DNA of 64,000 nt from Lytechinus variegatus (Eukaryota; Echinodermata; Echinoidea; Temnopleuroida; Toxopneustidae), in NCBI RefSeq assembly GCF_018143015.1, contig NC_054758.1:5691001-5755000 (forward strand). Direction: 5' to 3'. The translations under genes were made by a program, and so were the position numbers. The notes under the pieces were generated by a model. That model was not told where the DNA came from. It saw nothing but the letters and a program-made list of their open reading frames with translations, and did no database searches. The first letter of the stretch is position 1. Every line of letters starts with the position of its first letter. Shown here piece after piece: positions 2,858-45,393 of the stretch.

Positions 2858-3022
2858 ATGGCCGACTCGGACGATGAAGACGTCCTGTACGCCCATGACC
2901 TGGGTCGTAATCTTATCGGAGGCAAGCGGGTGAAGAACATGGATGATGTAATGAACGGAGGCAAAAAGGACAAAAGAAAACTGAGAAAAACGCTTGCACT
3001 ATGCATGGCATTCTTGTGCTTG
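2858..3022 (+). CDS. MFSD4B: MFSD4B coding exon 1 (residues 1-55)
   Basis: The exon is preceded by a pyrimidine tract and AG at 2851-2852 and ends at a GTAAGT donor (3023). It encodes an acidic cytoplasmic N terminus (MADSDDED), a basic KKDKRKLRK stretch and the start of helix 1. It ends in phase 0, matching exon 2. The ATG context (ACAAAATGG) is good. Confidence 0.92.
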
Positions 3023-6000: not shown

Positions 6001-9000
6001 GTTTTTGAAATGATGTCATAACTTAGAAAGTATTTGGACCTAGTTCATAAAACTTGGCCATAAGGTTAATCAAGTATTACTGAACATCCTATTAGAGTTT
6101 CATGTCACATGACCAAGGTCAAAGGTCATTTAGGGTCAATGAACTTAGACCATGTTGGAGGAATCAACATCGAAATCTTAACCTGAGGTTAAGTTTTTGA
6201 AATGTCATCATAACTTAGAAAATATATGGACCTAGTTCATGAAACTTGGACATAAGGTTAATCAAGTATCACTGAACATCCTGCATGAGTTTCACGTCAC
6301 ATGACCAAGGTCAAAGGTCATTTAGGGTCAATGAACTTTGGCCGAATTGGGGATATCTGTTGAATTCCCATCATAACTTTGAAAGTTTATGGATCTGATT
6401 AATGAAACTTGGACATAATAGTAATCAAGCATCACTGAACATTTTGTGTAAGTTTCAGGTCTCATGATTAAGGTCAAAGGTCATTTAGGGTCAATGAACT
6501 TTGGCCGAATCGGGGGTATCTGTTGAATTACCATCATAACTTTGAAAGTTTATTGGTCTAGTTCATTGAACTTGGACATTAGAGTAATCAAGTATCACTG
6601 AACATCCTGTGCTCATTTCAGGTCACATGACCAAGGTCAAAGGTCAATGAACTTTGGCCGAATTGGGTGTATCTGTTGAATTACCATCATAACTTTGAAT
6701 GTTTATGGATCTGATTCATGAAACTTGTACATAAGAGTAATCAAGTATCACTGAACATCCTGTGCGAGTTTCAGGTCACATGATCAAGGTCAAAGGTCAT
6801 GTAAGGTCAATGAACTTTGGCCATGTTGGGGTTTTTTGTTGAATAACCATCATATCTCTGTAAGTTTATTGGTCTAGTTCATAAAAAGTGGTCTAGTTCA
6901 TTAAACTTGGACATAAGAGTAACCATGTATCACTGAACATCTTGTGCGAGTTAGATTTATAGTATTCATAGTCAGCACTGCTGCTATATTGAACCGCGTG
7001 ATGCAGGTGAGACGGCCAGAGGCATTCCACTTGTTATTCAAACCACCTATATGTAGCTGGTACAAAAAAATTTTGGTTGTTTTCAACTTGCCGTACCGCC
7101 GCCGTAGAGCAAATGTGACCGGGGTATTAAAGTTGTGTTTTAATTACAATTTCTGATTGATAAATCACATGAGATTGAGACTGCCATAAATATTAGAAGG
7201 GATTGACTTTCTCATTCTTTTACAGTCATGTGATCTCAATAGACTGCAATATATTTTAACTTGATGATGTATAACAGTATAAACAGTTTCACTTTTAAAA
7301 TATGCAATGATGTTGTATTATTATGTAACATCAGTCTCATTTGCCACTTTCACTTTTGCCCACACAATTCATTCAGTAAGTCTACCAATTGTGCCTTTAA
7401 AAAAAAAAATCCCCATGTATTCTGTAATATAGAAATGTGTTCAATGGAAAAGTGACCTCATCTTAAAAATTATGAATTTGGAGAAAATTTATGAAGAAAA
7501 TTTGAAGAGTGTTAGCCCCTGAAAATTATTCAAGGAGAAGTTCTCACAGACGTCCAGTTTGTTTCCATAAAAGCAGCACAAACAAAATCAGGGTTTGGCC
7601 GAAATTCATTTTAATAAAAAACATGAGTCAAGGATCTGGAAAAAAAATTGTGATAGTATATCACATGCAAGCAGTGCTCGGCACTCCTTAGTGCCATGTA
7701 CAGTAGTATAAATTCCAAAAAGCTCAACTTTTTCAGGGCAGTTGTAAATGATTTTTCCTCAGGGTGAATTCAATGTTACACTCAAACATATTATTCAAAC
7801 TGTGTATGCTTCTTTGGAGAATGTGCAGTCGTATTCATGAACCCTTAAAAACAACAATTTATTGACTTGAAAAACAACAGTTTTTCAGGGAGTTGTCTGG
7901 GAGTTGTCCGGGCTATATAGAGTGTATGTATGATTAAAAAAACTAACATCCTCAGATATTTTTTGTGGATAGGCTATATTTGTGAACCTTTTCCTTCATA
8001 AAAATGTTATCTCACATTGCTGCTTTTATTACAGACTCTATAAAGTTGATGTCAGGATGAACTTCTTTAATGTTTGTTTGTACTGGCCCTACATATAATA
8101 ATGTGTTCATCTACATGCATCATTGCATCTGCCGTCCATATTTGTGGTATACGTGTAGGTCTCTGGCTCTCTGCCAATATGCCCAATAAGAGATGATTTA
8201 TTAATCTAGTTTTATAGGGAATGGTTAGCAGACTTTAGTTGTTTCCTACGTTTCGTTCTCTTTAATAGGAAATGCCACGAGTATACGTAAGGTGGAAGAG
8301 GGGGCAGGGGCAGAGATTCCCCACCTACCGACTGACATGATATTTACCCGGGGGGCCACTTCCATTCACGAGTGGATACCATGCGCGACCATGGGGTCTC
8401 GAAAAGCACCCTAAACACGAAATTTCCATATTCTGAAAATGCACCCCTTAACAAGTATTGGCGTGTGAAACCTAACCCTTAACAAGTATTGGAAACAAAA
8501 CGATACTCTTGGCAAATATTTCCTGAAATGAACCCCTAAACAAGTAAAGGAATGTTTTATTGTTACGGGTCCTTTGGTTGTCGGCTTTACCTTATTTGGT
8601 TTAGTACGACCCCACCTTCTACACCTCGCGCAAATAGGACTCTAAACACGTAGTGTTGGGGCAAAAAGGACATCCTTTATAAAACATTTAATTTTGTTTT
8701 ATCATCCCCACAAATTCGACCCTAAACACGTAATTTTACTAGCGAAATAGATACCCTTTTTTCATTATTTTTGTGTTTTTGGCACCCTTTTCACGTTACG
8801 TACGTAACGTGCCCTATCGTGAAAAGGACATCCTTTTTACGTGTTTTTTTGGTCGCGCATGGTATCCACTCGTCAATGTAAGTGGCCCCCCCCCCCCCCC
8901 CGGATATTTATCACTTAATTTTGACAAATAAATTGCTTCCAGAATTTTGATGTTGACCTCAAACTCTTTTTTTTAATTGTCAGAAAATGTTCCCCTCTTG

Positions 9001-12000
9001 ACTATGGTAGGCTTCCCATTTACACCAAATGAGCAATGCATAATAAGGTTTTCAGTTTCAATAGTTGAAATTGTGCATTATAGCAATGGGGAAAATTATC
9101 CTGCGAACTAATATTCTACTTTTTTTTGGGGGGGGGCAATAAAAGCAATAAAAGACCGCAAAATAAACTACATCTTTTTTATATGGTTTTCTTTATTTTG
9201 GGGGACAGTAAACTTTAGGTTCGGACCAGTAGAAATGGAAAAACTGGGTACATGTATCTACTGGTCCGACATGAACAAGTTGGACCAGTAGGTTAGTGTG
9301 GTGCCCTTATATGAAAGTGACATGTCTCCATAATGATGAAATAAGTTGCAGCAAGAAATAACTAATGCGCTTTATCAGCTTTCAATCTAATTGTTTAACT
9401 TCTTGATAGAATTTTTTTAATCAACCTAATTTCATTTAATAAAATACAGAAGGAAGTGGGGATATCATCGTATGACATCATCAGCCCACCTAATGAATAT
9501 TCATGAAGACATGCCTAGAACTGTTTCACTGGAATAATGCAAATCTTTAAACTTCAATAAATTTGTTATTTGTTAGCTGATTTTCAGCATTTTACTGTGA
9601 ATTTTCCTCTTTTTATTGAGATACAAATATCTTCTGCCCAGAGGATCCCTTTAATTTAATTTATTTGATTTTTTATTTTTATGATAATGTTTTATCAAGA
9701 AATTAATATTAAATTACAAAATTTAAAAACAATTCTAAGTCAGATTATGATAAAAAAAGTTTACAATGGAGGTGAAAAGGATAGAGTTACACTGAGATGC
9801 AAATTAGAATGTAGCTTCCGATTTCTAAAGAAGTACAAAAGGCTACAAAGGTGCACTTTAGCCTTCGGTGGCGACCTATGATGCCGCCAGTTTCATGAGA
9901 AAACTAAAAATAATAACATATTAAAAAGACTGATCCATGATTTAAGTATACATGTATATTGTCTTTTGAAATATGAACAAGTTATAGTTTGTAAAATTTA
10001 TCCTTTTCCGACTATTTCTATTCCTTTTGAAAATGACAAAAATTAAGTCAAATTGGATAGGTATGTGTAATGTACCGTTACATACCGGTAATATAATTTT
10101 TCTTACCAAATTTGATTAGAATTTATGGTCAAAACAGGAAAGCTGTCAACTAAGTTATGTACAGTATTATGTATCTGTTACACAAAAGCTTTTTTGTGTA
10201 TATAGCAATATAAATAAAGACTAAAAAATTCAGAGCAAATTGCACTGCAATACCAGGAAGTTATACCAGGCTGCATTGATACTGATTACATGGTTATGTA
10301 ATTAGTGAGGAAATACTTGGAAATGGTGCCTGTTAAATCCAAGTACATGTAATTCGTAATTTTTGTCTCGCCTGCGTAGCGGAGCGAGACATAGGTATCA
10401 CTATTTCCGGCGTCGTAGTCATCAACAATTGTGTTGTACACCCAATAACTTTCTATAGCTTCGAGTTGGGATCACCAAATTCATACCAGAGGTCCATCTC
10501 CTGAAGGCACAGGTCAAGTTCGAATATGAGTCGAATTTGAATGAGGTCAAAGGTCAATGAACTTTCCATGACTGGCACTGTGCTATGTTGTACACATAAT
10601 AACTTTCTTTATCTTCGAGGTGGGATCACCAAATTCATACCAGAGGTCCATCTCCTGAAGGCACAGGTCAAGTTCGAATATGAGTCGAATTTGAATAAGG
10701 TCAAAGGTCAATGAACTTTCCATGACTGGCACTGTGCTGTATTGTACACACAATAACTTTCTATATCTTCGAGGTGGGATCACCTCGAGCGTTGTGGCCC
10801 AGAGGATTAGTCTTCGGACTTTGAAACAGAGGGTCGTGGGTTTGAATCCCAGCCATGGCGTAATTTCCTTCAGCAAGAAACTGATCCACAGTGTGCTGCA
10901 CTCAACCCAGGTGAGGTAAATGGGTACCGGTAGGAAGTAATTCCTTAAAAAGCTGTGTGCGCTATGAACGCCTAGCTTAGCCGGGTAATATAAGAGCGCC
11001 TTGAGCACCTAACAAGATGGATATGTGCGCAATATAAATACCCTATATTATTATTATTATCATCACCAAATTCATACCAGAGGTCCATCTCCTGAAGGCA
11101 CAGGTCAAGTTTGAATATGATTCAAATTTGAATAAGGTTAAAGGTCAATAAACTTTCCATGACTGGCACTGTGCTGTGTTGTACACACAATAACTTTCTA
11201 TGGCTTTGAGGTGAGATCACCAAATTCATAACAAGGTCCATCTCTTGAAGGTGCAGGTCAAGTTCAAATGTGAGCAGAATTTGAATAAGGTCAAAAGTCA
11301 ATGAACTTTCCATGACTGGCACTGTGCTGTGCTGTACACACAATAACTTTCTATATCTTCGAGGAAGGATTGCCAAATTCATACAAGAGGTCTATCTTTT
11401 GAAGGTGCAGGTCTAGTTCGAATGTGAGTTGAATTTGATTAAGGTCAAAGGTCAATGAACTGTCCATGACTGGCACTGTGCTGTGTTGTACCGGGGGGGG
11501 GCCACTTACATTGACGAGTGGATAGCATGCGCGACCAAAAAAACACGTAAAAAGGATGTCATATCACGATAGGGCACGTTACGTACGTAACATGATAAGG
11601 TTGTCAAAAACACAAAAATAATGAAAAGAGGGGGCCGTATTCTGAAAATTGTCTTAAGAGAAATATTCTTGTATCTTTAGAGTTACAATAAAATCCGTAT
11701 TTCGAAAATTGTCTTAACTTTTCTTGTAACTTTCACTGAGCGCATATGATGTCAGAGATGATAATGCGTAAATGTATATTTGGCGCATATTAATATGTCT
11801 GTGCGCAAGATAAAATATCGAGTTACAAGCTATTCCGAAAATTCTCTTATCTTTACGTTCTCTTAACTTCCTTGGAAAATACAATAAAATTTACAAGAGG
11901 TGGGGCGCTATTGTAACTTATTGTTGCATGCGATATTTGCCAGTCTGCAATAATCATTTCTTGCTGCATCCCGCAAGAACATCATGTTTTACAAAAGGAG

Positions 12001-15000: not shown

Positions 15001-18000
15001 TGAAACCTTTGGAACAAATAGGCTTGTGTAGAAACAGAAAAATCAAAGAATAAGAATAAAGAAAGTTTGAGAAAAATCGGACAAATAGTAAGAAAGTTAT
15101 GAGCATTTGAATATTGCAATCACTAAAGCTATGGAGATCCTCACATTGGCAATGCGACAATGATGTGTGATGTCACTGATGAACAACTTTCCCTTTGGTG
15201 GACTATAAAATACCCACAAAATGTCTCTTTTTGCTTTTTCTTATGATGATACACACTCTTTATCCATGATGTATTCTTAGAAAATATGTATTACTTGCCC
15301 TCATGTAGAAAGAACACATGATTTATGGATACATGTAGATGTGATAAAAGAGGCAATTCAAGTGAAATACCTACTACAGTAATGGGGAGAGTTGTTCACA
15401 AGTGACATCACACATCTTTGTCGCATTGCCAATTTGCCATCTCCATAGCATTAGTGATCGCAATATTCAAATGCTCATAACTTTCTCATTCTTTGTCCGA
15501 TTTTTCTCAAACTTTCGTTGATCTGTTTCTTTGATTTTTCTGTTTTCACACAAGCTATCTTGTTCCAATGGTTCCATTCTCCTTTAAGTGCACAGAGGCA
15601 CTCATGGGCAGTGATATGCGCTATACAAGTGTAACACGCGGAAACTGATGCAGAAAGATGACACACGACACCATTCCTTGTGTTTCGGTTCGTTTAATAT
15701 CGATGAGTCGTTATATACAAAATTCCACAATTTCCAAGTACATGTACAGGAACAAAAGATAAAGAAATAAAAAAAAAACCTGCAAAAACCAATGAGAATA
15801 AAACAATTAACTAGAATGATGATATATGTTTGAAAAACACACAAAATAGAAATATACACATATTTGCTTGTGACTCTTAGATAAAACATTCATCAATATG
15901 ACGTCAAGTAGACTCGTAATAATAAATGATAAACATGTTGTCTATATCCATTCATTAAAACTTATTCAATATTGCCTGAATTCAACTCATCTAATCACAA
16001 ATTCAGTTCCTCCATCGTTGGATAACTTTTCCAACAAATAAATGAAATACATCCATTAAGTGAAATTTACCAACCAACAATAAAAATATGCCAACAAATT
16101 AGCATTGAAATACAGTGGTTTATAAATGATAACCACTCACCCTGGCAATCTGGCCTAGAGGACCATATTATTTCCTCTCGTGATAGCCTCACCCGCTACA
16201 CGAATGTCATGTCAAATACCTTTAAAAGGAAAGTAACAATTATTACACATAGTAAGCAATCGTTGTGACCCTTTACTCTGAAAACACAAAACTGAAACAT
16301 TGAATTTACAATTCAATAACCAAAATCTTCAACTCTAAAGATCATTTTACTAACCGTTTTACTTTATGATTAGAACCGAACACATTTTATGTTTATTACT
16401 ACATACTACAATCAAGTATACAATTACAAGTAATTAATATAAAATATCACAAAAATCATCTGAAGTGACAAAGACAGATGCACAACTAATTAATTATTCA
16501 ATTCACAAAACCCCTTAGAATAAGACAAATACATGTATGCTATGCTAGCATAGATAGCACTTTAATATAACCTAACCTCTTATTCCGAACAATAGAAAAT
16601 ACATTGTTAACCAACTTTATAAACTATTGTTCAAAACTAACAGAATTGACAAAATAATATCTTACCTAGAATTCTGACCCGAAAATGAAGAAGCCTCTCT
16701 GCCTGCCCCATGAATGGGGTGCAGTGCAGGAGTGAATTGGAGCAAACTCCTCTCTCCCTTTTATGCAGTCATCACTCTCCATAAGCCTTGACCATAATAC
16801 AAGCTCATAGCTCTGGAATGTGATGTTTTGACCCAAAGACCATTCAGCATCACTCTTACCCAGAAAGAGTGTGAATCATACTTCCTAAAAAGCATGAAGA
16901 TTGTTTAACATTTCTATTTTTTTACTACTTCTTGTGCACTTCCTCTAAAGGCATCTATTACTTACAGACGAATTATTAAGAGTAATGAAAATATATGAAT
17001 TTTCAATAAACAGTTCATTTTGACCTGTTACATACTCCCCTACTTAATTGAGTGACGTCCCGGCACTCACTATACCAAAATTATTACAAAAATTAAAGTC
17101 CTACTTAAAATAACACTACCTGGAGATGCTTGTTCCCAGTTACAGAACAAATCAATTTACAATTAATCATGGCACTAAATATATAAAGCCAGTAATCACC
17201 CGATACAGAATATAAAAATCTCGGCAATAACACGGTATTGGCGAACCCGCACCACTAATACGAACTTCCTGGTCTCGTGACGAGAATAAACACAGAAAAC
17301 ATATCTAGTGCAAAAACTCAACTGTTTCAGTTTTCAAGTACACTCCATATTATGTAATACTAGTCTCATGTTGAGGTTCCTAGCATTGAACATTCCAAGT
17401 GCTTCCTAACTGATCCTAACAGCTCCAGAGTTTATACCAACCAATTGTTTAGTTATCAACATAAACCTTCACAATCCATGTATCTCAACGAATAACAGAC
17501 CTTTATAAAATTATAGCCAGTAAAATCAATCACTACAATGCCATCCTTAAACCTCCAAAAATATACCTACTTATACTTTAAGCCGATTCAAACTGTTAAA
17601 GAATTACAAGACAATAAACAAATAACAATTACTAGATGTTTCCCCAAATCTTAGCAATTTCAAATGGAACAATGGTATACCAATATAACACACTGAAAAA
17701 TCTCATAACTTATGACTAATTCTCTCAACTACCACTGCGTCCTTTCCGGCCTCGAAGGTTAACAGATAAACAAAGGTAAAGAGAAAAACCTTACTGCCCC
17801 AATAGTCACTCCAGTATCCCTCTAATGCAATCCCGGTCTCAGATTGAGGTTCTCGAAATTAACATTGATACTTTATCCTGACTAAACCTAGCAGTACTCC
17901 TAGCCAAATCCCAGTTACAAATCAGAAAGATCAGCATATTACAATATGATAACCATTATAACACACAGACACATGAAAGTAAAACACTTTCATCAACACG

Positions 18001-21000
18001 TGGGCTCCCCTACTTTTTTTCCAAAGTAGCCCCTAAAACTATCAAATACACATTCTGGATCAAGCAATTAATTAACATTAATTCACGCCATAGCTTACAT
18101 GTAATTAAACCGAATATTAATCAAGATCCAAAACAAAAATTAAAAAGTTAACAAACTTCAAGTATCAGACAAAGAAACGCCTCAACTATTCATAGTTAAT
18201 CATGTTTGCCAAACCCAGAGCTTCTCTGCACATACTGTACTCCCTCCTATCAACATATAAAATACTGGTGTCTCTGGCTTCCTACACCCCAATGTGTGGT
18301 TCCCATCCAACCAGCCAAAATTACATAAGAAGGGGGGCATGGACTGTTCCAAACCACAGCATTACCATGACAACACAAAACTAATCTTCAACAGTACTCA
18401 GTATTCCCTTGACCAAAGCCATTTGGTCTGAAAACTCTTACAGGGTATCTCTTAAAATACCTTCCCACTAGTATTAGTCCCTATTAACTACACTTGTAGC
18501 CCCACATTATTTTAAACCAAACTACATTTTGGCTACAGCATTCACACTATGCACACACACAAATACATCTTAAACAGTGTTAAAGCTACGTTCATATTTA
18601 CAAATCAAGATGTCCACGGATGAGCTCCTCAGATTGTCAGGGTTTGAACTTGGTTGTATCCAACGACGAACATCGATCCTGCTGACAACGCCACTTGTAA
18701 CACGCGGAAACTGATGCAGAAAGATGACACACGACACCATTCCTTGTGTTTCGGTTCGTTTAATATCGATGAGTCGTTATATACAAAATTCCACAATTTC
18801 CAAGTACATGTACAGGAACAAAAGATAAAGAAATAAAAAAAAAACCTGCAAAAACCAATGAGAATAAAACAATTAACTAGAATGATGATATATGTTTGAA
18901 AAACACACAAAATAGAAATATACACATATTTGCTTGTGACTCTTAGATAAAACATTCATCAATATGACGTCAAGTAGACTCGTAATAATAAATGATAAAC
19001 ATGTTGTCTATATCCATTCATTAAAACTTATTCAATATTGCCTGAATTCAACTCATCTAATCACAAATTCAGTTCCTCCATCGTTGGATAACTTTTCCAA
19101 CAAATAAATGAAATACATCCATTAAGTGAAATTTACCAACCAACAATAAAAATATGCCAACAAATTAGCATTGAAATACAGTGGTTTATAAATGATAACC
19201 ACTCACCCTGGCAATCTGGCCTAGAGGACCATATTATTTCCTCTCGTGATAGCCTCACCCGCTACACGAATGTCATGTCAAATACCTTTAAAAGGAAAGT
19301 AACAATTATTACACATAGTAAGCAATCGTTGTGACCCTTTACTCTGAAAACACAAAACTGAAACATTGAATTTACAATTCAATAACCAAAATCTTCAACT
19401 CTAAAGATCATTTTACTAAACCGTTTTACTTTATGATTAGAACCGAACACATTTTATGTTTATTACTACATACTACAATCAAGTATACAATTACAAGTAA
19501 TTAATATAAAATATCACAAAAATCATCTGAAGTGACAAAGACAGATGCACAACTAATTAATTATTCAATTCACAAAACCCCTTAGAATAAGACAAATACA
19601 TGTATGCTATGCTAGCATAGATAGCACTTTAATATAACCTAACCTCTTATTCCGAACAATAGAAAATACATTGTTAACCAACTTTATAAACTATTGTTCA
19701 AAACTAACAGAATTGACAAAATAATATCTTACCTAGAATTCTGACCCGAAAATGAAGAAGCCTCTCTGCCTGCCCCATGAATGGGGTGCAGTGCAGGAGT
19801 GAATTGGAGCAAACTCCTCTCTCCCTTTTATGCAGTCATCACTCTCCATAAGCCTTGACCATAATACAAGCTCATAGCTCTGGAATGTGATGTTTTGACC
19901 CAAAGACCATTCAGCATCACTCTTACCCAGAAAGAGTGTGAATCATACTTCCTAAAAAGCATGAAGATTGTTTAACATTTCTATTTTTTTACTACTTCTT
20001 GTGCACTTCCTCTAAAGGCATCTATTACTTACAGACGAATTATTAAGAGTAATGAAAATATATGAATTTTCAATAAACAGTTCATTTTGACCTGTTACAT
20101 AAGCAACTTATTAGTTCATGTGATCATTGAATTAGATTCTTATACTTAACCACAGCAATTTGCTTTCAAAAGTGATGACAATAATAAGATAAATTTATAT
20201 AGCAACCACTATGTAAATACAGGGTTCCCACAGTGATGGAAAATCCTGGAGGAATTTGTGGTCATGGAAAGTCGGGGAAAAGTCGGGGAATTAGAACATT
20301 TGTGAAAAGCCAGCATTGCATTTACCTCTTGGCTATGGCAGCTTTCCAGTTTGTTGTGTCTCGCAACTCTCATACTCTGTGATCATACTCTGCTATTATA
20401 ATTGGTGTTCATGATTTCCATTTTCCCCTGTTTTGTGACATCCCAAATTCTACATAACTCCCGGGATGTCACGGGAAGTCATGGAAAGCAGCAATTTAGT
20501 CATGGAACAGTCATGGAATTCTGTTTTCAAATTTCTTTGCGAACCCTGAAATATCGTCTTTTGCACTATGATACTGCTATTACTTAAATTATATTATTAT
20601 TAAATCAGTCTACATGAATGCTTTGAATTTGATGGACTGAAAAGGATTAATTCATTAATAAACGTTAAAGGTAAAAGATAGTAGTTGCCACAAAAATATT
20701 GGAATTAGAAAAAAAATTCATGAGAAGGTCTTTCAAATCAAGGTTAATTGTTGCCATATGTTCATATGTCTAGATCTGGACTGGTTCATTAATGTAGAAA
20801 AAAAATTGTAGAATAAAAAAAAATGTAACATTATCTTTGTGAAATCTCAAAATCTTAGCTCAAAACAGATAATTCTGATGATCACTTACACAGAAAAAGA
20901 TATGTGGGATAGTGTAATAATATTGCTTGGAAAAATACATTTGATGGAATTCCAAGCTTATTTTACCCATTTTCTTCCAGAGTCATTTAGCAGATATTTT

Positions 21001-24000
21001 TTTTAATTCTACAAACATTTGGATATTAATTTCTTGGATTCTGCTTGAATCACAACTTGTAGGCCTATTCTTCTATAAATCAGGAACATGCTGCCTGAGC
21101 CATTCTTATTACATTTGGAAGTTGGTTCTGCAATTTATTGATGACAAATATCAAAAGAAAACTAAAAAGAGCATGTTCAAGAAGTTAAAATGAGAGTTCA
21201 AATCACAGAACAATTGTTGTCCCTTCAAAATTAATTTCGTGGTGATAAACTAAGATTTGAAAAATGAGAGCTTTTGTAAATTAGGATTGGCAGAACGTCG
21301 GCAAAAATAGTCAAATCTATATGGCATTCCTTCACATGCCCACACATTCATAATATATCTTTTTACTTGAATCATTCATAATTGTCTGGGACTGATCTAA
21401 TTTTTTCCTATTAAAACATGATAAAAGAGTACAGTAAAAAACATAATATATTGTAAACAACATTTTTGAATACAAGAATGAAAATGAAATGTGGAGGTAT
21501 GGTGTAGTGTTTCTGACTATAATCTCTTGATCAGAAGGTCATGGGCTCAAATCCTACTCCAAGCATTCATCCCTCCAGCAAGAAATTTATCCATATTGTG
21601 CTTCACCCAACCAAGGTGAGGTAAATCATTTGGCAGGGACTTGTTTCTTGAAATGCAGTGCATGTTAAGCTGCTCTGCTAAAGCCAGGGTAATTATGCTA
21701 CATTGATATAGAGTGATAGTGAGAGAGACAATAGAGACTATTTATAAAGCAAGTGTTGAGCGCTGTGTAAGCAAGTACTATTATCATAAACGATATTGCT
21801 CGTCTTTCAAGGGACATGAGTTCAATTCCTAGTTAGGGCGTTTTCCTCCAGCAAGGTATTTACCCATGCTGTACTGCACTCCACCCAGGTGAGGTGAAAG
21901 GGTACCCAGCAGGATTACTTCCTTGAAAAAACCAAGCGCTTTTAGCTCAGTTCGAGCTAAAGCCGGGTAATATGCACCACTGAATAGACAACTAGAAAAT
22001 CGGTGCCTCCTAAACGCTTGATATTATTATTAAAGCTTTGTTGTATCATATCAAAACTAGGATTTTAAAAAAAAAATCTTTATATATCCTCACAGGGTCT
22101 ATGCCTGTCCATTCTCGGCCCAACGCTTCTGAGCCTGACAGATCACCTGCACACGACGGTGCCCAAGATCTCCATGGTGTTCGCAGGACGGAGTGTCGGC
22201 TACCTCTCTGGAGCCATCCTCGGAGGCATGCTCTTCGAAGCCTTCAACCCTTTGTTCCTTCTTGCCATTGTCCTCCTCCTGTGCGGTATAGGGATCACGG
22301 TTGCCCCGTTCGCAGCAACGGTCCTTGCGCTGGGAGTGTGTATAAGTAGTGTTGGTATCAGCATGGGTGTCTTGGATACAGGTGAGCATGTCCAATCAAT
22401 CGCGATTATGAAAAGCCACCAACGTCAGAATTCTTTGTTCAGGAAATTTCCACTTTGTCCCTTTTGGAATGAGGAGGAGCAAACTGATTTGATAAGACTA
22501 ACACGTTCAGGTTTTTGATGTAGCTGGCTTTCCATAGTCATGACTGATTGGATCAGTGAAAAAAAAACTGGTGTCCAAACCCACTTTGTGCTTCTAGAAG
22601 GCCCCGTTGACAACAGATAAACTTTTCACATAATACTCAATGGCCCGTACTCTGAAGTCAGTTTTAATTTAGGCAACAGTCTAACTCTTTGTGTTACCAT
22701 GCCATTTTATCCAGTCCTCCAGGTTTTGCTCATCTTAGATTTAGATTTTGTCTGGGCAGTGTCCAATTAGTGCAAAATATTCAGATTAAATCACTGTCGT
22801 GTTCAATATTTGATACACCAGTGCTTTGTTTTATAGTATTACCTACAAAATTGGGAAACCTTAAGGACATACTGTTACTTGTGAATAATAATGACATTGG
22901 CCGTATTCTGAAGTCAGGTTTAACTTAGACCATGGTCTAACTCTGTCCTAAAATTATGGGAAGCCAAAAGTCTCAAAATTTTTATTAACTTTTATGTTTC
23001 TAAAGTTTACTGTGCTCTTTTCTGATTCAGCGATGGTGAAGACGATCACTCATTCATACTTCCGAGACAATTATGAATGATTTGATAGCCAATTGAGCTG
23101 AATTAGGATATCTCTACTGTTAGTGATTTATGTAACAATTGGCTGTCCATACTTAAATTACAACTTTAAACCTGAGTTTAAATTAAACCCGACTTCAGGA
23201 TACGGGCCAATGTCTTTATATGACACTACATTAATTCTCTTTCTCATTGACTGTCCAACCCCACAACATGAAAAAAATGATTCTCACATTGTCCAGTCTC
23301 CAGATTTAAGTGCACTTGCTGTGTGACCTCTTGTGGCTGCACACATCGGCCCATATTCTGAACTCGGGTCTGAATTACACCCTGGTTTAAAGTTGTGGTT
23401 TAACTATGGAGAGCCAATTGGGGGGCACAAATCCCTAACAGTACACATCCAATTTATAACCCTTCACTTCGTGGAGCGTTGTGGCCCAGTGGATTAGTCT
23501 CCGGACTTTGAAACAGAGGGTCGTGGGTTCAAATTCCAGCCATGGCGTAATTTCCATCAGGAAGAAACTGATCCACAATGTGCGGCACTCAACCCACGTG
23601 AGGTAAATGGGTACCGGTAGGAAGTAATTCCTTAAGAAGCTGTGTGCGCTCTGAACGCCTAGCTTAGCCGGGTAATATAGGAACGCCTTGAGCACCTAAC
23701 AAGGTGGATATGTGCACAAGATAAATACCTATATTATTATTATATTATAATCTCATATGTCTGGGAATGATAAATGAAGTATCTTCATTATGAAAGCAAA
23801 ATAGTAAACATATAAAATATACAATAAAAACACAATTGTTGGCTCCCCATGATATAAGAAAAGAGTTAGACTGTTGTCTAAGTTAAAACTGACTTCAGAA
23901 TACGGGCAATTGAGTGTTAAGTGAGAAGTGTATCTGTTGTCAACAGGCCTACTGGAAACACAAAAGTGGTTTGGACACGGGCCCGTATTCTCAAGTTTAA

Positions 24001-27000
24001 AGTTGTGGTTTAAATATGGATAGCCAATTGTCACAACTGGGCGTTGTGGCGTGCGCCTGTGATCCAAGCTGTGGGGGAAATTACAAATTGATGCTGAGGT
24101 TCGAGCCCTGATCATGTCTTTCGGATGGTGACGTTAAAGGTCGGTCCCAGACGTATATAATCATACCTGATTGATACACGTCTGACAAAACTCAAATACA
24201 CACACACTCTCACATAAATCACCATAAGTAGAGATTCAAATTCAAATTCAATTCGGTTTTATTAAACAATACTCATCAAAAAGTTCAAAGACTAACAATG
24301 TGAGTTTACATTTTAAAAACTACATAACAAAGAAATGAATAAATACATATGCAGTGACTATTAAAGAAGGAGAAAACAATATATACATTATGTTTAAAAT
24401 GCAATAATAGTATAAAAAGAAATAGAATGAGCAGATACATGTAATAAGACAGATTTAATTTATATATGTAAAAACAGGTGAAAAGCAAGAATGGCAAGAG
24501 TAAGCATGCGAAAAGGTGATAATAGAGAGGGTGATAAAGCAAAAATAACGGAGTGAAGGAGAAAAAAAAGGAAGACCCACACGTAAACAATAAATTGCAG
24601 ATTACAAATATAAGAATTATGTATAACAAAAGAATTATGTATAAAAAAAAAGATATCATACTTCAGCTCATTTGGCTCTCAAATCATTCATAATTGTCCA
24701 GGAAGTATAAATAGATGATTGTCTTCACCATCGATGAATCAGGAAAGAGCACACAAAGTCAAAACCTTCCTATCGATGGCACGTGTATGATGTCCATTTT
24801 TGTGCCAAAGTGCTTTTCACTGACACATACATTGTGGTGTTCCCTACTTACTACAGTTGAAATTTGATTGCATTCTCAAAACGATAAAATCAGAAATTAA
24901 TTCTCAAATCAGGATTTTTTTATTTGTAATTGTTAGCATTGGTATAAAGAATATTCACACCCAAAATTAGCTTTATATGAGCTTTTTATGGTGAATTAGA
25001 GCATAAATTAATATAAATAATTCATATTCAAAAAATCGGATGATATCTGAAATATTAACCATACAAAGTTGAAGACTACATCCCACACTATTATCTAGCC
25101 AATTTTCACGGCATTCACACGATTGGTGGTCGAGAGCTCAAGGGAGGGTTGATTCAACCCCCCCCCCCCTCTCTCTCCTAGTCTGCAGGCACAGACCCTG
25201 ATTGAAACTTTGATCAACAAGTGTGTCTCCACGCTAAGACTAGCACATACAAAATTTGCTGTTTCAATTTTAGGCATGAGTAGGCTGCACACACACCCTT
25301 GCCCTTAACTCAAGTGAAGGGTTTGCACAGTAGGCTACCTCCCTCCACCCGGTATTAGCTAATACCGGGGGTCTGGTTAGGGTCGAAGGGTTTCAATATA
25401 TCTTTGTGGACTTGTGTATAAATCTGAGCTGTGGGGCCTACAATGCTATCAGTGTTTGCGATAGTTTTTCATGAGGAAACCCTGAAAATATACAAATAGC
25501 GAATGGGCACGAGTGCTATGGTGCGAGATTTCACATGAGGTGAAAGAAAGATGCTCTATTCAACGAGGCGTTAGCCGAGTTGAATAGAGCGTTTCTTTCT
25601 TTCACTGAATGCGAAATCTCGCACCATTGCACGAATAAGAATATTCGCTATTTGTGTTGTACAATGCCTTGGAATCTAGCGAAAATATGAAAAAACAAGA
25701 GTTTTTCCCCTCCAGTAATCTATGAAAAGGGAGCAAAAATATTGATAGCGAAAAGCAAAATCCCCAAGCGCACATGATGTTGGACAGCATTGCACATTCA
25801 GCCAGCGTGCTGTACGCGCATTGTCACCTTATTCAATGAAATGGCATTGTGACGTCACCTCCTAAAGCCCGTGCAATGGTACATTTTGGATGGTACATCT
25901 TGTGTGCAACGGTACAAATGTGTGACATTCAGCCTTCCATTTGATCGCGTACAACAAGCTAAGTAGGCGTTGTACAATGTTATTTCATACATGTAAGCAT
26001 CGCTATATTGATTAAAAGTTTTATTGTTTTCCCTCCGTTGTTAAACTATGCGTACCTTGGGATGTCATGACTATAGTCATCAGTATCTTATAAATTGAGT
26101 ACCCGATTAGCTCCAAAATCTCAGGTGATTCTTGTCTGACCTAAGGTTTGCAATTATTGTTACAGCATTAGCGGCAAGAGAAAACTGTTTTTGGAACCTG
26201 AATGAATTTGAACAATCCCTTTAACCATTCCTCATCTTCTTTTTGTCACCCCCAGGTGCTAATCTCGTCTGCCTTCGAATGTGGGGAAAGAAACGTTCAG
26301 GCACCATGCTACAAGCCCTCCATTTTAGCTTTGCCCTCGGTGCCTTCTTCGCCCCCCTCCTGGCGTCTCCCTTTCTGGTAGACACCTCAACCACTGGCAA
26401 TATGGTGGAAACAACTTCCACTTTGGTTCCTCCAACTCTGAATGTAGCAATGACGGATGCCATCCATACCCTGGGTAATGAAAAATTCAACAGTGGCAAG
26501 CCTAATGATTTCGATGTCAAGTCTGATGATGGTAGCACCGGTGTCAAGTCTGATGATGGTAGCACCGGTGTCAAGTCTGATAATGGTAGCACCGATGTCA
26601 AGTCTGATGATGTTAGCACCGATGTCAAGTCTGATGATGGTAGCACCGATGTCAAGTCTGATGATGGTAGCACCGATGTCAAGTCTGATGATGGTAGCAC
26701 CGATGTCAAGTCTGATGATGGTAGCACCGATGTCAAGTCTGACGATGTTAGCATCGATGTCAAGTCTGATGATGGTAGCACCGGTGTCAAGTCTGATGAT
26801 GATAGCACCGATGTCAAGTCTGATGATGGCACCAGCAATAACAATCCTAATGATATTAAGCCTGGTACCACCAAGAACAAGCGTGATGGTCGTTCGACTG
26901 ATGACAAGTCTGACGATGGTACCTCCGATGACAAGTCTGATGATGGTGGCACCGTTGTCAAGTCTAATGGTGTTAACACTGATGTCAAGTCTGATGGTAG

Positions 27001-29344
27001 CAGCGATGTCAATTCTGATGATGGTAGCACAGATGAAAAGTCTGATGATGGTAGCACTGATGAAAAGTCTAATGATGGTAGCACTGATGAAAAGTCTAAT
27101 GATGGTAGCACTGATGAAAAGTCTGATAATGGTAGCACTGATGAAAAGTCTGATAATGGTAGCAATGATGTCAAGTCTGATAATGGTAGCACCAGTGTCA
27201 AGTCTGATGATAATAGCACCGATGTCAAGTCTGACAATGTTAGCAACGCTATCAAGTCTGATGATGGTAGCACCGATGAAAAGTCTGACGATGGTAGCAC
27301 CGATGAAAAGTCTGATAATGGTAGCACCGATGAAAAGTCTGACGATGCTAGCACCGATGAAAAAACTGATAATGGTAGCACTGATGAAAAGTCTGATGAT
27401 GGTAGCACTGATGAAAAGTCTGATGATGGTAGCACTGATGAAAAGTCTGATGGTAGTACAGATGAAAAGTCTGATGATGGTATTACTGATGAAAAGTCTG
27501 ATGATGGTAGCACTGATGAAAAGTCTGATGATGGTAGTACTGATGAAAAATCTGATGATGGTAGTACTGATGAAAAACCTGATGATGGTAGTACCGATGA
27601 AAAGTCTGATGATGGTAGTACTGATGAAAAACCTGATGATGGTAGTACCGATGAAAAGTCTGATGATGGTAGTACTGATGAAAAGTCTGATGATGGTAGC
27701 ACTGATGAAAAGTCTGACGATGGTAGCACCGATGAAAAGTCTGATGATGGTAGTTCTGATGAAAAGTCTCATGATGTTAGTACCGATGAAAAGTCTGATG
27801 ATGGTAGTACCGATGAAAAGTCTGATGATGGTAGTACCGATGAAAAGTCTGATGATGGTAGTACAGATGAAAAGTCTGATGATGGTAGCACTCATGAAAA
27901 GTCTGATGATGGTAGCACTGATGAAAAGTCTGATGATGGTAGCACCGATGAAAAGTCTGATGATGGTAGTTCTGATGAAAAGTCTCATGATGTTAGTACC
28001 GATGAAAAGTCTGATGATGGTAGTACCGATGAAAAGTCTGATGATGGTAGTACCGATGAAAAGTCTGATGATGATAGTACAGATGAAAAGTCTGATGATG
28101 GTAGCACTCATGAAAAGTCTGATGATGGTAGTACAGATGAAAAGTCTGATGATGGTATTACCGATGAAAAGTCTGATGATGGTAGCACTGATGAAAAGTC
28201 TGATGATGGTAGCACCGATGTCAAGTCTGATGACGGTAGCACCGATGTCAAGTCTGATGATGGTAGCACTGATGAAAAGTCTGATGATGGTAGCACTGAT
28301 GAAAAGTCTGATGGTAGCACCGATGAAAAGTCTAATAATGGTAGCACTGATGAAAAGTCTGATAATAGTTCCACCAATGAGAATGACGGCGAGTCCAAGA
28401 ATGCTAACGTTATCAGTTCCAACGAATCGACATCCTCCCCACAACATCAGGTTCCAAGATTTGCAATGCCATACATCATCATAGGGGTTTTTGTTCTCAT
28501 AACCTCAGTACTCTTTTTCTATTTCCTTTTCACTAAGCCCAAGAATGAACCTAAGTACGTCGCATCAGAGGATTCTGGTGCAGTTTCAGATAAGGACAAC
28601 TTCCCATTTAGAACCAGAGTTCTGCTTCTCCTGTTCTGCTTCTACTTCCTTTATGTTGGTGGAGAAGTGGCATATGGAAGCTTTGTACCTATGTTTGCCA
28701 GTAAGAGTCCTCACCAATTTGGGCAAGACCGTGCTAGCCATGTTGCAGCTCTGTTCTGGGGCACCTTCACCTTTGGGCGCGGCCTAGCCATATGTCTTGC
28801 CAGTGTCATCTCGCCTCTCAAGATGGTGATTGCCGACATGGTGGGATGCGTCACCACCTCTGTCATCTTGACTCTCTTTGCAGACACAAACGAGAATGTC
28901 TTGTGGTTAGGCAGTGCCTTGTTAGGACTGTCGATGGCATCGCTCTTCCCGACGGGAATCGCCTGGCTAGAAACGTACACTCGTGTCACCGGCAACACCG
29001 CATCATTCCTCGTAGTTGGTAGCGCCCTTGGCGAGATGTGCGTGCCTGTTGTCATCGGCTACCTCTTTGAAGACAAAATTGGCCCGATGGTACTGATGTA
29101 CTGGATGTTGGCGACGTCTGCATTGTCGGCCCTCATCTTCGCCTACGTGATGTGGTTGATGATGGAGAATGGGAAGGAGAAGGAGTCGCTTCCAGCCGAG
29201 AAAAGCCCCGCCTTGGATCTTCTTCACAGCGTCGAGGAGGCCTTCCCTGGTGAGGAATTCTTCAGCAATGGGACATCAAGCAGCAAGCAAATGAGTAAAC
29301 CTTTAGTCCCTCCAATACTCAAGAAGAAAGACCATAAAGAGTGA
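2858..29344 (+). CDS. MFSD4B: MFSD4B/NaGLT1-like sodium-dependent sugar transporter with giant acidic repeat loop (3 coding exons)
   Basis: Coding exons are 2858-3022, 22096-22381 and 26256-29344. Phases agree (165 nt, then 286 nt ending phase 1, then 3089 nt) and give 1179 residues; relatives have roughly 500. The protein is a 12-helix MFS carrier: helices 1-2 carry LGPTLLSL (62-69) and GRSVGYL (86-92); DTGAN (149-153) and QALHFSFALGAFFAPLL match the NaGLT1/MFSD4 family; YVGGEVAYGS (950-959) starts the second half, followed by FWGTFTFGRGLAI, MASLFPTG and GSALGEM. NaGLT1 family members carry glucose or related substrates with Na+ at the plasma membrane; that role is inferred from family. Between helices 5 and 6 (about 192-888, predicted outside the cell) sit about 69 copies of DDGSTDEKS. 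The start at 2858 follows a good splice acceptor (TAG at 2850-2852), so a non-coding 5' exon lies upstream. Confidence 0.93.
3023..3676. other. Start of MFSD4B intron 1, no feature
   Basis: AT-rich intron DNA with a short G run near 3259 and repeated small TAATTTATTT motifs near 3390-3490. I recognise no element. Confidence 0.5.
3677..3860 (+). repeat. Fragment of TTCGTAATTCCGAAGG foldback-element repeat array
   Basis: It begins CGCATACATTCGTAATTCCG, the same terminus as the foldback elements at 53385-53777 and 57955-61368, and contains five or so units alternating TTCGTTAxTCCGAAA and ACGAAATRAGG. It stops abruptly at about 3855. A further scrap of the same repeat is at 5085-5130. Confidence 0.75.
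3861..4062 (+). repeat. Purine (GA/AAG) low-complexity tract
   Basis: About 150 bp of almost pure purine (GAAAAGAAGAGG-type) spans about 3940-4060. The Lys/Glu-rich open frames on + and Phe/Ser-rich frames on - are by-products of composition. Confidence 0.8.
4063..4355 (+). repeat. Tandem duplication, 2 x 147 bp
   Basis: Two near-identical copies, 4063-4209 and 4210-4355, both start ACTTAGAAAAAAGTGCC and end CACAGTGCCAGTGAG. They differ by very few bases and by one base in length, so the duplication is recent. No function is apparent. Confidence 0.9.
4356..5851. other. Intron DNA without recognised features
   Basis: Apart from a short scrap of the TTCGTAATTCCGAAG repeat at 5085-5130 and a small CAT run near 5818 I see nothing. 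The open frames here are short, without family resemblance. Confidence 0.5.
5852..7126. mobile_element. Inverted-end element holding five tandem units with DR1 motifs
   Basis: The outer ends (CACATTTGCTCTATGGCGGC on the left, its near reverse complement at 7096-7118) enclose an inner pair GTCTCACCTGC (5920-5930) and GCAGGTGAGAC (near 7004-7014). Inside are about five units of 155-190 bp. Each has CATAACTT, GACCTAGTTCATRAAACTTGG, TCACTGAACATCCTGT and a perfect AGGTCAAAGGTCA, at 6116, 6308, 6471, 6634 and 6787. No protein is encoded. It is a non-autonomous DNA element; the tandem units resemble those of the element at 10361-13350. Confidence 0.7.
7127..8347. other. Intron DNA without recognised features
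   Basis: AT-rich sequence with no repeat or coding frame I can name. The open frames are short and of intron-like composition. Confidence 0.5.
8348..8903. mobile_element. hAT-like MITE, whole copy with 8-bp target duplication
   Basis: Ends read CCGGGGGGCCACTTCCATTC and, reversed from the right, a long G run then GCCACTTACATTGACGAGTGG. Both continue into GATACCATGCGCGACCA. Flanks ATATTTAC (8340-8347) and ATATTTAT (8904-8911) match at 7 of 8 bases. An 8-bp duplication points to the hAT superfamily. It is non-coding. A second copy lies at 11491-12833 and a fragment at 2634-2765. Confidence 0.8.
8904..10360. other. Intron DNA with one decayed MITE end
   Basis: The segment near 9405-9655 ends in CAGAGGATCCCTTTAA and resembles one half of a TTAA-target MITE (compare TTAAAGGGATGCTCC at 41278). 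GGACCAGTAG occurs three times, in both directions, near 9220-9295. Nothing else is recognised. Confidence 0.4.
10785..11061 (+). mobile_element. tRNA-derived SINE with 6-bp target duplication
   Basis: It starts with a tRNA-like head (GTTGTGGCCCAGAGGATTAG, then a B box in GGGTTTGAATCCC), followed by a body with CTCAACCCAGGTGAGGTAAA and AGCCGGGTAATA, and ends in an ATT-repeat tail. ATCACC flanks both sides (10779-10784 and 11062-11067). Copies occur at 23470-23747 (+), 46118-46377 (-) and 55820-56082 (-). Confidence 0.9.
11491..12833. mobile_element. hAT-like MITE, reversed copy with an internal insertion
   Basis: It is the reverse of the 8348-8903 element, with the same G-run ends and GAGTGGATAxCATGCGCGACCA termini. 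The flanks are a perfect 8-bp duplication GTGTTGTA (11483-11490 and 12834-12841), which splits a unit of the host tandem repeat. Its own body is interrupted at about 11631-12420. Confidence 0.85.
11631..12420. mobile_element. Inverted-end DNA element nested inside the hAT-like MITE
   Basis: The ends read GGCCGTATTCTGAAAATTGT and, from the right in reverse, GGTGGTATTCTGAAAATTGT, each followed by repeated CTTAACTTTTCTTGTAA-like sequence. The uninterrupted MITE at 8348-8903 shows the unbroken target. No transposase is visible; the 67-codon frame at 12054 has no family likeness. Confidence 0.75.
13363..14347. mobile_element. Tc1/mariner-like non-autonomous element with TA target
   Basis: Left end CAGTGCGTATCAAAAAAAGT and the right end in reverse (CAGTGCGTATCAAAAAAAAG) form inverted repeats of about 28 bp ending in GTTTACACTT. 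TA flanks both sides (13361-13362 and 14348-14349). At 985 bp it carries no transposase I can see. Inner segments with GAGTGAGCAC also pair with one another. Confidence 0.85.
14350..14990. other. Intron DNA without recognised features
   Basis: AT-rich, with a small palindrome around GGAACAGGATCGTTCC near 14698. I see no gene or repeat copy. Confidence 0.5.
14991..15587. mobile_element. MITE with TTAA target
   Basis: Left TTAAAGGGGAATGAAACC and right (in reverse) TTAAAGGAGAATGGAACC pair, and the similarity runs inward through CAAGCTTGTGT-like, CAGAAAAATCAAAG and AGAAAGTTATGAGCATTTGA. TTAA stands at both edges. It is non-coding and belongs with 1864-2380 and 35613-36207 by end structure. Confidence 0.75.
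15630..20099 (-). mobile_element. Non-coding LTR retroelement with two near-identical LTRs
   Basis: LTRs are 15630-17032 (1403 bp) and 18696-20099 (1404 bp), almost identical, hence a recent insertion. In the minus sense each begins TGTAACAGG and ends GTGTTACA. Next to the 5' LTR (18696-20099) lies a primer-binding-like TGGCGTTGTCAGCAGGAT (rc of about 18676-18693), and a purine tract AAGTAGGGGAGTA abuts the 3' LTR at about 17033. Flanks CAAG and TAAG match at 3 of 4 bases, in line with the 4-bp duplication of the solo LTR at 66-661. The 1.66-kb interior (17033-18695) shows no gag, protease, RT or integrase, so this is a LARD/TRIM-like passenger of another, probably Ty3-like, element. The fossil looks structurally whole for its non-coding type. 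Confidence 0.88.
20220..20548. mobile_element. hAT-like MITE with CAGGGTTC ends
   Basis: The ends CAGGGTTCCCACAG and, in reverse from the right, CAGGGTTCGCAAAG form the inverted pair typical of many hAT miniature elements. The interior repeats GTCATGGAA and GTCGGGGAA. I could not find an exact 8-bp duplication. Confidence 0.6.
20549..21494. other. Intron DNA without recognised features
   Basis: AT-rich sequence with no repeat copy or coding frame that I can name. A similar stretch (GATCACTNACACAGAAAAG and following) recurs at 30134-30200 after the gene, so part of it may be an old interspersed repeat. Confidence 0.45.
21495..21787 (+). mobile_element. Old tRNA-derived SINE
   Basis: The head (GGTATGGTGTAGTG, then GGTCATGGGCTCAAATCCTA as A- and B-box-like parts) and the body motif CACCCAACCAAGGTGAGGTAAA match the SINE family at 10785 at lower similarity. 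It ends in TACTATTATCAT. It lies directly before another copy. Confidence 0.65.
21788..22032 (+). mobile_element. 5'-truncated tRNA-derived SINE
   Basis: It enters at the B-box region (GACATGAGTTCAATTCCTAG) and continues with CTGCACTCCACCCAGGTGAG, AAAGCCGGGTAATATG and an ATTATTATTA tail. It ends 63 bp before the splice acceptor of MFSD4B exon 2. Confidence 0.75.
22096..22381 (+). CDS. MFSD4B: MFSD4B coding exon 2 (residues 56-151)
   Basis: Acceptor TATCCTCACAG ends at 22095 and donor GTGAGC starts at 22382. The exon encodes the end of helix 1 to helix 4: GLCLSILGPTLLSL, the MFS loop GRSVGYLSGAILGG, helix 3 and ISSVGISMGVLDT. It ends in phase 1; the split Gly codon is completed in exon 3. GC content is clearly higher than in the surrounding intron. 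Confidence 0.93.
22382..22898. other. Start of MFSD4B intron 2
   Basis: A degraded piece of the CCCGTATTCTGAAGTCAG MITE family is at about 22643-22690. Otherwise nothing is recognised. Confidence 0.45.
22899..23211. mobile_element. MITE, CCGTATTCTGAAGTCAGG family
   Basis: Left end GGCCGTATTCTGAAGTCAGG pairs with the right end in reverse (GGCCCGTATCCTGAAGTCGG). Inside are TTTAACTTAGACCATGGTCTA and ATGGTGAAGACGATCA. Related copies or parts lie at 23345-23915, 23978-24032, 24660-24765 and 38128-38318. Confidence 0.7.
23345..23915. mobile_element. MITE of the CCGTATTCTGAAGTCAGG family, split by a SINE
   Basis: Left end GGCCCATATTCTGAACTCGG and right end ACTGACTTCAGAATACGGGC flank a body interrupted by the SINE at 23470-23747. 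Without the SINE its length is close to the copy at 22899-23211. Confidence 0.65.
23470..23747 (+). mobile_element. tRNA-derived SINE
   Basis: It has the same head, body and ATT tail as the SINE at 10785-11061 and is highly similar to it (GCGTTGTGGCCCAGTGGATT; GCTTAGCCGGGTAATATAGG). It sits inside a MITE. Confidence 0.88.
23978..24051. mobile_element. Half MITE, CCCGTATTCTCAAG end
   Basis: This is a left end of the CCGTATTCTGAAGTCAGG family that stops where a SINE-like sequence starts. The segment 24660-24765 (TCATAATTGTCCAGGAAGTA and GTCTTCACCATCGATGAATC) matches the inner part of the same family in reverse and may be its other half. Confidence 0.5.
24052..24235 (+). mobile_element. SINE-like sequence with 7SL-like head
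   Basis: GGGCGTTGTGGCGTGCGCCT is followed by GTGATCCAAGCT and GATGCTGAGGTTCGAGCCC. The first part lines up with the 7SL RNA/Alu segment GTGGCGCGTGCCTGTAGTCC with few mismatches, and GGTTCGAGCCC fits a Pol III B box. CACACACACTC lies near the end. Alternatively it is an ordinary tRNA-derived SINE with a chance match. Confidence 0.45.
24236..25492. other. Intron 2 DNA, AT-rich
   Basis: From 24236 a run ATTCAAATTCAAATTCAATT then TTTTATTAAAC resembles the 3' tail of a retroelement; a similar tail is at 57262-57400. The segment at 24660-24765 belongs to a MITE family. A C run followed by CT repeats is at 25159-25177. The rest is unassigned. Confidence 0.4.
25493..25655. repeat. Long imperfect inverted repeat
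   Basis: The arms of about 75 bp both read AATAGCGAAT..., ATGGTGCGAGATTT, GTGAAAGAAAG and GCTCTATTCAAC from the outside inward, meeting at GAGGCGTTAGCCGAGTT. It could be the fold-back part of a larger element reaching about 25985, where GTTGTACAATG recurs (compare 25658). Confidence 0.65.
25656..26255. other. End of MFSD4B intron 2
   Basis: It includes the probable right part of the inverted-repeat element (to about 25985) and then unique sequence leading to the pyrimidine tract and CAG acceptor at 26253-26255. Confidence 0.5.
26256..29344 (+). CDS. MFSD4B: MFSD4B coding exon 3 (residues 151-1179), with the acidic repeat loop
   Basis: Acceptor CACCCCCAG ends at 26255; the TGA stop is at 29342-29344. 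One 3.1-kb exon encodes helix 5 (QALHFSFALGAFFAPLL), a Thr-rich linker, the repeat domain (about 237-860), a Ser/Asn-rich linker, helix 6 (889-909), a cytoplasmic loop, helices 7-12 and a cytoplasmic tail with PILKKKDHKE at the end. Several SDNGSTD units carry N-G-S glycosylation sequons. Unit length changes are multiples of three, so the frame is kept throughout. The frames open on the other strand and in +2 follow from the 27-bp repeat. Confidence 0.95.
26513..28385 (+). repeat. MFSD4B: Coding minisatellite, about 69 units of 27 bp
   Basis: The unit GATGATGGTAGCACTGATGA plus AAAGTCT encodes DDGSTDEKS. Early units use GTC (DVKS), and from about 27030 GAA (DEKS) dominates. A degenerate stretch (about 26826-27010) separates the two blocks. 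Some units are 24 bp (SDGSTDEK). A block of eight units is duplicated: the rare GGTAGTTCTGATGAAAAGTC followed by CATGATGTTAG occurs at 27749 and 27965, exactly 216 bp apart. Confidence 0.95.
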
Positions 29345-38719: not shown

Positions 38720-39185
38720 TTCTTAAATGGGCTCTAAGAGCCTCCTCATAACCCTGCCACGCTCATCTGTACATCATCGTTATGAAGACAGTGAGATGTA
38801 ACCATCAAGGCAACTTCAAGGAACTACTACTACTCTATTAAGCTCTAAGAGCTCTAGGAGCCACCTTATAACCCTGCCACGCTCATCTGTACATCATCGT
38901 TATGAAGACAGTGAGATGTAACCATCAAGCAACTTCAAGGTAACTACTACTACTCTATTAAGCTCTAAGAGCTCTAGGAGCCTCCTTATAACCCTGCCAC
39001 GCTCATCTGTACAACATCGTTATGAAGACAGTGAGATGTAACCATCAAGGCAACTTCAGGTAACTACTACTACTCTATTAAGCTCTAAGAGCTCTAGGAG
39101 CCTCCTTATAACCCTGCCACGCTCATCTGTACAACATCGTTATGAAGACAGTGAGATGTAACCATCAAGGCAACTTCAAAGTAAC
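38720..39185 (+). repeat. Tandem repeat, four copies of about 120 bp
   Basis: Copies start at about 38720 (partial), 38821, 38941 and 39061, exactly 120 bp apart for the last three. Each has ACTACTACTACTCTATTAAG, CTCTAAGAGCTCTAGGAGCC, CCCTGCCACGCTCATCTG and GAAGACAGTGAGATGTAACC. The array ends about 490 bp before the start codon of the small membrane-protein gene. Confidence 0.92.
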
Positions 39186-44489: not shown

Positions 44490-44779
44490 AAAGCCATCTT
44501 CATCATCACCATCATCATCATCATCGTCATCATCATAATAATCATCATCATCATCACCATAATCATCACCAATCATCATCATCGTCATCATCATAAAATC
44601 ATCATCATCACCATCATCATCACCATCATCATCATCAAAATCATCATCACCATTATCATCATCACCATCATCATCATCACCATCATCATCACCATCATCA
44701 TCATCATCATCACCATCATCACATCATCATCACCATCATCATCACCATCATCATCACCATCATCATCACCATCATCATC

Positions 44780-44835
<56 letters not shown>

Positions 44836-45331
44836 CACCATCATCATCGTCATCATCATAATAATCATCATCACCATAATCATCAACATAATTATCATCA
44901 TCACCATCATCATCAACATCATTATCACCATTATCACCATCATTTCACCATCATCATCATCACCATCATCATCACCATTATCATCATCATCACCATCATC
45001 ATCAACATCATTATCACCATTATCACCATCATTATCATCATCACCATCATCACCATTATCATCACCATCATCATCACCATCATCATCATCTTCTCACCAT
45101 TATCACACCATTATCATCACCATCATCACCATCATCATCATCATCATCACCATCATCATCACCATCATCATCTCACCATTATCATCACCATTATCATCAC
45201 CAACATCATCCCACATCATCATCATCATCATCACCATCATCATCACCATCATCACCATCATCATCACCATCATCATCTTCACCATTATCATCACCATCAT
45301 CATCATCATCACCATCATCATCACCATCATC

Positions 45332-45363
<32 letters not shown>

Positions 45364-45393
45364 CACCATCATCATCACCATCATCATCATCTC
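44490..45393 (+). repeat. TCA/ATC trinucleotide microsatellite, about 0.9 kb
   Basis: Almost uninterrupted CATCAT/CACCAT triplets with scattered variants run for about 900 bp. The Ser-, Ile- and Met-rich open frames on both strands are by-products. Shorter tracts of the same type are at 32350, 50395 and 52635. Confidence 0.97.

Follow-up and report, generated by a model that had tools for sequence, protein, structure and literature searches.

In the rod Na+/Ca2+-K+ exchanger NCKX1, a large cytoplasmic loop between helices contains tandem acidic repeats. ZIP/LIV-1 zinc transporters have large extracellular or histidine-rich, low-complexity parts outside the membrane. In the human sugar carrier MFSD4B, also called NaGLT1 and which we take to be SLC60A2, the loop between helices 5 and 6 has about 45 to 50 residues. 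PMC5627054 describes MFSD4B as a protein of 518 amino acids with sodium-dependent glucose transport, and a table there lists it as intracellular. Sea urchins themselves make phosphodontin, an acidic short-repeat phosphoprotein. According to PMC2830187, the Strongylocentrotus purpuratus protein is a very acidic tooth-matrix component with a predicted secretion signal and 35 short Ser-containing repeats of 11 to 12 residues (EISSGEGEQPK), outside any carrier.

We analyzed a stretch of 64,000 nucleotides from Lytechinus variegatus (C19:5691001-5755000; the assembly has 33 contigs totalling 869,567,369 bases), referred to here as the window. It contains a gene predicted to encode an MFSD4B-like carrier with a long acidic repeat, DDGSTDEKS, in the region of loop 5-6. 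NCKX1 resembles it in that tandem acidic repeats lie between its helices, but it belongs to an unrelated family and has its repeats on the cytoplasmic side. ZIP/LIV-1 proteins share the bulky part outside the membrane, but they are of another family and use metal-specific residues. The repeat is also not of the phosphodontin type, as its sequence differs and it lies within a membrane carrier. In the open-licence literature that we searched, we found no MFS carrier with an acidic disordered tandem repeat in an extracellular loop, no occurrence of the letters DDGSTDE, and no title on such a loop among papers on MFSD4B/NaGLT1 or coding minisatellites.

Gene model and identity of the carrier

A product of 1,179 amino acids, the length given in the preliminary description, was read from three exons on the forward strand of the window. 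The coding part of exon 1 (2858-3022) encodes the N-terminus and the start of TM1, ends in ...MAFLCL, and is followed by the donor TTG/GTAAGT, which scored 8.8 with splice-site matrices not trained on Lytechinus variegatus. Scored in the same way, exon 2 (22096-22381) has an acceptor of 9.2 and a donor of 10.8. It begins GLCLSILGPTLLSL, covers the rest of TM1 to about TM4, and ends ...MGVLDT plus the first base of the codon completed in exon 3. The coding part of exon 3 (26256-29344; acceptor 11.0) starts (G)ANLVCLRMWGKKRSGTMLQALHFSFALGAFFAPLLASPFLV and would encode TM5 and, after the entire repeat-bearing loop, TM6 to TM12, the C-terminus and the stop. A further, untranslated exon may lie 5' of exon 1.

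Both flanks of the array matched the Pfam family MFS_1 (PF07690) above its cut-off of 33.4 bits. The N-terminal flank aligned with profile positions 1-142 of 347 (E 3.6e-10, 39.7 bits) and the C-terminal flank with positions 152-342 (E 5.2e-15, 55.6 bits). These are consecutive parts of the profile, so that a single MFS chain continues from one side of the array to the other. An array that forms a separate gene or is an accident of frame was ruled out, because the MFS_1 match continues across it and the open frame of exon 3 extends from 26225 to 29344.

Hydropathy analysis found helix segments in fitting order on both sides of the array, although several merge (3-4) and TM2 was not separated. 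The segments directly before (residues 167-195) and after (residues 881-913) the array are best read as TM5 and TM6. With this numbering, the array would lie between helices 5 and 6, as judged from hydropathy, the MFS_1 split point and an alignment with a provisional human sequence. The assigned limits of TM5 and TM6 enclose 694 residues, of which 621 are repeat; the human loop is far shorter, at about 45 to 50. The array roughly doubles the predicted protein, whose calculated mass is 124.6 kDa with it and 60.4 kDa without it. The nonrepeat portion at the N-terminal side (26381-26512, residues 193-236) reads DTSTTGNMVETT...GKPNDF, and that at the C-terminal side (28376-28462, residues 858-886) reads NENDGESKN...QHQVPRF, contains the sequon NEST and precedes TM6.

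With the array removed, the product was co-linear with a provisional human MFSD4B sequence, showing 35% identity over 442 aligned positions, with the human loop 5-6 falling at the array. It scored 219 bits against human MFSD4B and 74.7 bits against part of MFSD4A, both sequences being provisional and the latter incomplete. A phmmer search of solved structures with the C-terminal half gave a single match (E 0.21), which we took as chance. Apart from the array, this is probably an ordinary MFSD4B-like carrier with 12 helices. MFS_1 on both flanks bears out the preliminary description of an MFS carrier with an in-frame repeat set into it; the placement in loop 5-6 is consistent with our data, and the likeness to MFSD4B is supported by comparison with the provisional human sequence. 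The same description called the loop extracellular. This is conditional, as the loop would face a lumen if MFSD4B is an intracellular protein, as the table in PMC5627054 has it.

Composition, reading frame and variation of the repeat

Tandem Repeats Finder reported an array at 26512-28363 with a period of 27, 68.6 copies and 87% matches. Cutting by residues placed the repeat at 26513-28375 (residues 237-857) and gave 69 pieces with the consensus DDGSTDEKS, comprising 62 nine-residue units, 3 eight-residue units, two irregular pieces (14 and 16 residues) and two partial ends (4 and 5 residues). The unit is longer than 9 bp, a multiple of three, and set head to tail in the open frame of a gene, as in a coding minisatellite. 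About 69 acidic nine-residue repeats in one exon had been claimed and are present. The strongly negative charge was likewise confirmed by computation, with 180 Asp, 44 Glu, 69 Lys and 2 Arg giving a net charge of -153. Charged residues make up 47.5% of the repeat, and it falls on the disordered side of a charge-hydropathy line, so that it is probably disordered. It contains 198 Ser or Thr residues, 46 CK2-type [ST]xx[DE] sites, only 2 SxE sites and 10 sequons for N-glycosylation. A Pfam search with the repeat returned 0 families.

No frame break occurs in the 621 codons of the array, and all observed length changes are multiples of three. The array stays in frame because its unit is nine codons. 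These features had been offered as signs of coding, and while the observations hold, they carry less weight than was claimed. The open frame is weak evidence: a second forward frame reads through the tract as well (676 codons, 26454-28484), and reverse frames are open over much of it (705 and 515 codons). The length changes are weak evidence as well, since slippage inside GATGAT naturally steps by 3 bases. The stronger case for coding is that, within one exon and one frame, the array is flanked by carrier sequence on either side, and that no good splice-site pair removes the array alone. The predicted carrier is presumably expressed with the array.

Among the 62 nine-residue units there are 34 distinct DNA forms and 24 distinct protein forms, and position 8 is Lys in 62 of 62. 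To assess selection, changes were placed on one consensus, ignoring the kinship of units as copies. On that basis, 6 of 31 distinct changes were synonymous (P 0.75 versus random placement), and there was no clear sign of residue-level selection between units. When changes were weighted by occurrence, 59 of 148 were synonymous versus a null mean of 31.6 (P 0.07), an excess that leans towards some constraint. The same test on distinct changes reached P 0.04 in one of the other two forward frames, a result that we attribute to noise.

An internal duplication at 27719-28073 is offset by 216 bp, or 8 units, and includes an exact run of 139 bp (27719-27857) and its copy. This points to recent growth of the array by block duplication. 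For successive tens of nine-residue units, the mean differences from consensus were 2.8, 3.1, 2.7, 2.1, 1.9 and 1.8, with 2.0 for the last two units. A DVKS form, which differs from the consensus by two bases at once, is common at the 5' end. Because the consensus is the DEKS form, we draw no firm conclusion on a gradient of age.

Origin of the array and competing explanations

We believe, with a probability of roughly two in three, that the array is a coding minisatellite grown in the polar, permissive loop 5-6 of an MFSD4B-like carrier. In this model, a 27-bp unit would have arisen in the hydrophilic loop and grown by slippage or unequal exchange, in steps of 27 bp and larger ones such as 216 bp. 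The outcome would be an ordinary carrier with a disordered polyanionic tether of about 620 residues on the outer or lumenal face. The array is probably tolerated mainly because the loop is permissive. The array and its frame, the MFS_1 matches on both flanks, the confinement of the unit pattern to this array, the block duplication, the charged composition and the result for distinct changes count for this model, as does the S/D-rich loop of about 50 residues in an MFSD4A-like gene elsewhere in the genome (see below); the invariant Lys 8, the 621 codons without a frame break and the weighted synonymous excess count against it. If the carrier is expressed as predicted, loop 5-6 of an MFS protein can accommodate more inserted residues than the carrier itself contains, and nature has here tested both how permissive the loop is and how coding minisatellites remodel membrane proteins.

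The repeat could instead be a selected functional domain, a polyanionic brush, perhaps modified by phosphate or glycans, that would bind Ca2+/Mg2+, mineral or matrix in the style of phosphodontin. We regard this as doubtful. The net charge, the abundant Ser and Thr, the CK2-type sites and the sequons would suit such a brush, and the fixed Lys 8 and the weighted excess point the same way; however, CK2-type sites are frequent by chance in any acidic sequence, SxE sites are nearly absent, and the distinct changes between units show no residue-level constraint. Phosphodontin is a precedent for an acidic short-repeat phosphoprotein in sea urchins, but its repeat differs in sequence and it has a predicted secretion signal (PMC2830187). 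A bolder form of the idea, somewhat less likely again, is a carrier of the NaGLT1 kind in which the modifiable outer brush is a working part, for example by condensing Ca2+/Mg2+ or by anchoring the carrier in a matrix close to surfaces that mineralise or absorb, and in which the brush would differ in length from one individual to another. Conservation of the array in other sea urchins would speak for a novel type of charged surface domain in a sugar carrier.

A function in attracting Na+ or Ca2+ had also been proposed. It is unsupported by our analysis, in which the differences between units were not clearly distinct from random placement by either measure (P 0.75 and 0.07). The body fluid of a marine animal resembles seawater, with abundant Na+ and charge screening that acts within very short distances, so that added attraction of Na+ would matter little. 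Any effect of the minisatellite would most likely be steric or arise from weak chemistry of divalent cations, glycans or phosphate, and not from the supply of Na+. Roles based on divalent ions or phosphate are possible.

Splicing could remove the array from most mRNA, leaving a common protein with a short loop, which we consider improbable. There is a weak donor, TGG/GTAATG at 26475 (4.2), before the array and a weak acceptor at 28451 (4.5) after it; they sum to 8.7, the best of 96 scored pairs, and join out of frame. The gene's own introns scored 18.0 (8.8 plus 9.2) and 21.8 (10.8 plus 11.0) with the same matrices, while the best in-frame pair removing the array alone (26405 with 28451) reached 7.1. 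Thus, no good pair for clean removal was found among the 96. Pairs with a stronger acceptor-like site at 28884 (10.2) reach 15.5 when out of frame and 14.4 when in frame (26475 with 28884), but they delete the protein up to residue 1027, which would take TM6 to about TM9. Within the array, the best pair scored only 3.7 plus 2.6.

A copy number inflated by misassembly from a shorter real array, or the reverse, is highly improbable: tandem arrays are prone to such errors, this is a single assembly, and the 216-bp block with its exact run is present twice, but the variety of DNA forms among the units and the frame kept throughout argue against it.

Related sequences in the genome and other repeats in the window

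The unit pattern, allowing up to 3 mismatches, had 62 matches in the 869.6-Mb genome, and the reversed pattern, used as a control, had 0. All 62 matches lie inside the array, and a dispersed satellite was thereby ruled out. At the protein level, a genome search with 199 residues of the repeat found 13 matches at E ≤0.001, 4 in the array and 9 elsewhere, the latter with 17 to 32% identity. Five of the nine were inspected (L018, L019, L020, L022 and L024); L020 and L024 yielded only short fragments in the reading frame used. L018 and L019 are short repeats of different kinds, and L022 has the appearance of a zinc-finger protein. L018 (C5:34367166-34367654) combines acidic and basic residues in short units like HSDTDLRND, within an open frame of 181 residues, and its sequence is unlike DDGSTDEKS.

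Genome protein searches with both halves of the carrier found no second MFSD4B copy. With the C-terminal half, the one match at E ≤0.001, from 4 scored candidates, was the gene itself. The N-terminal half gave 7 matches at E ≤10. Two were the gene itself (L002 and L003), three lay on C3, and weak matches on C5 (E 0.09) and C15 (E 1.7) are unexplained. The C3 matches belong to one gene, presumably MFSD4A-like by comparison with a provisional human MFSD4A fragment (31% over 86 positions). In one of its exons, LQALHFCYGLGAVISPLLAEPFL is separated from the following KYAFWIMAAFQV by about 50 residues, most of them polar. This gene is of the same family and has S/D-rich residues in the same loop, but the loop has no repeat and the relationship is distant, the best piece having E 0.04.

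Several other repeats were seen in the window. Intron 1 contains two direct repeats (15630-17034 and 18696-20101) whose alignment of 1,406 positions has a single gap and no mismatch. They have the ends TGTAACA...TGTTACA and stand about 1.66 kb apart, and the pair looks like a very young LTR-type element, probably a nonautonomous one. Long-unit tandem arrays with periods of 120 to 192 (one alternatively 316) lie at 5973-6886, 10432-11491 and 38731-39179. A CAT trinucleotide array of about 301 copies (79% matches) occupies 44495-45391. Arrays of one unit of the TTCGTAATTCCGAAGG / 42-bp type occur in both orientations at 3687-3851, 53393-53660, 57963-58426 and 60956-61360.
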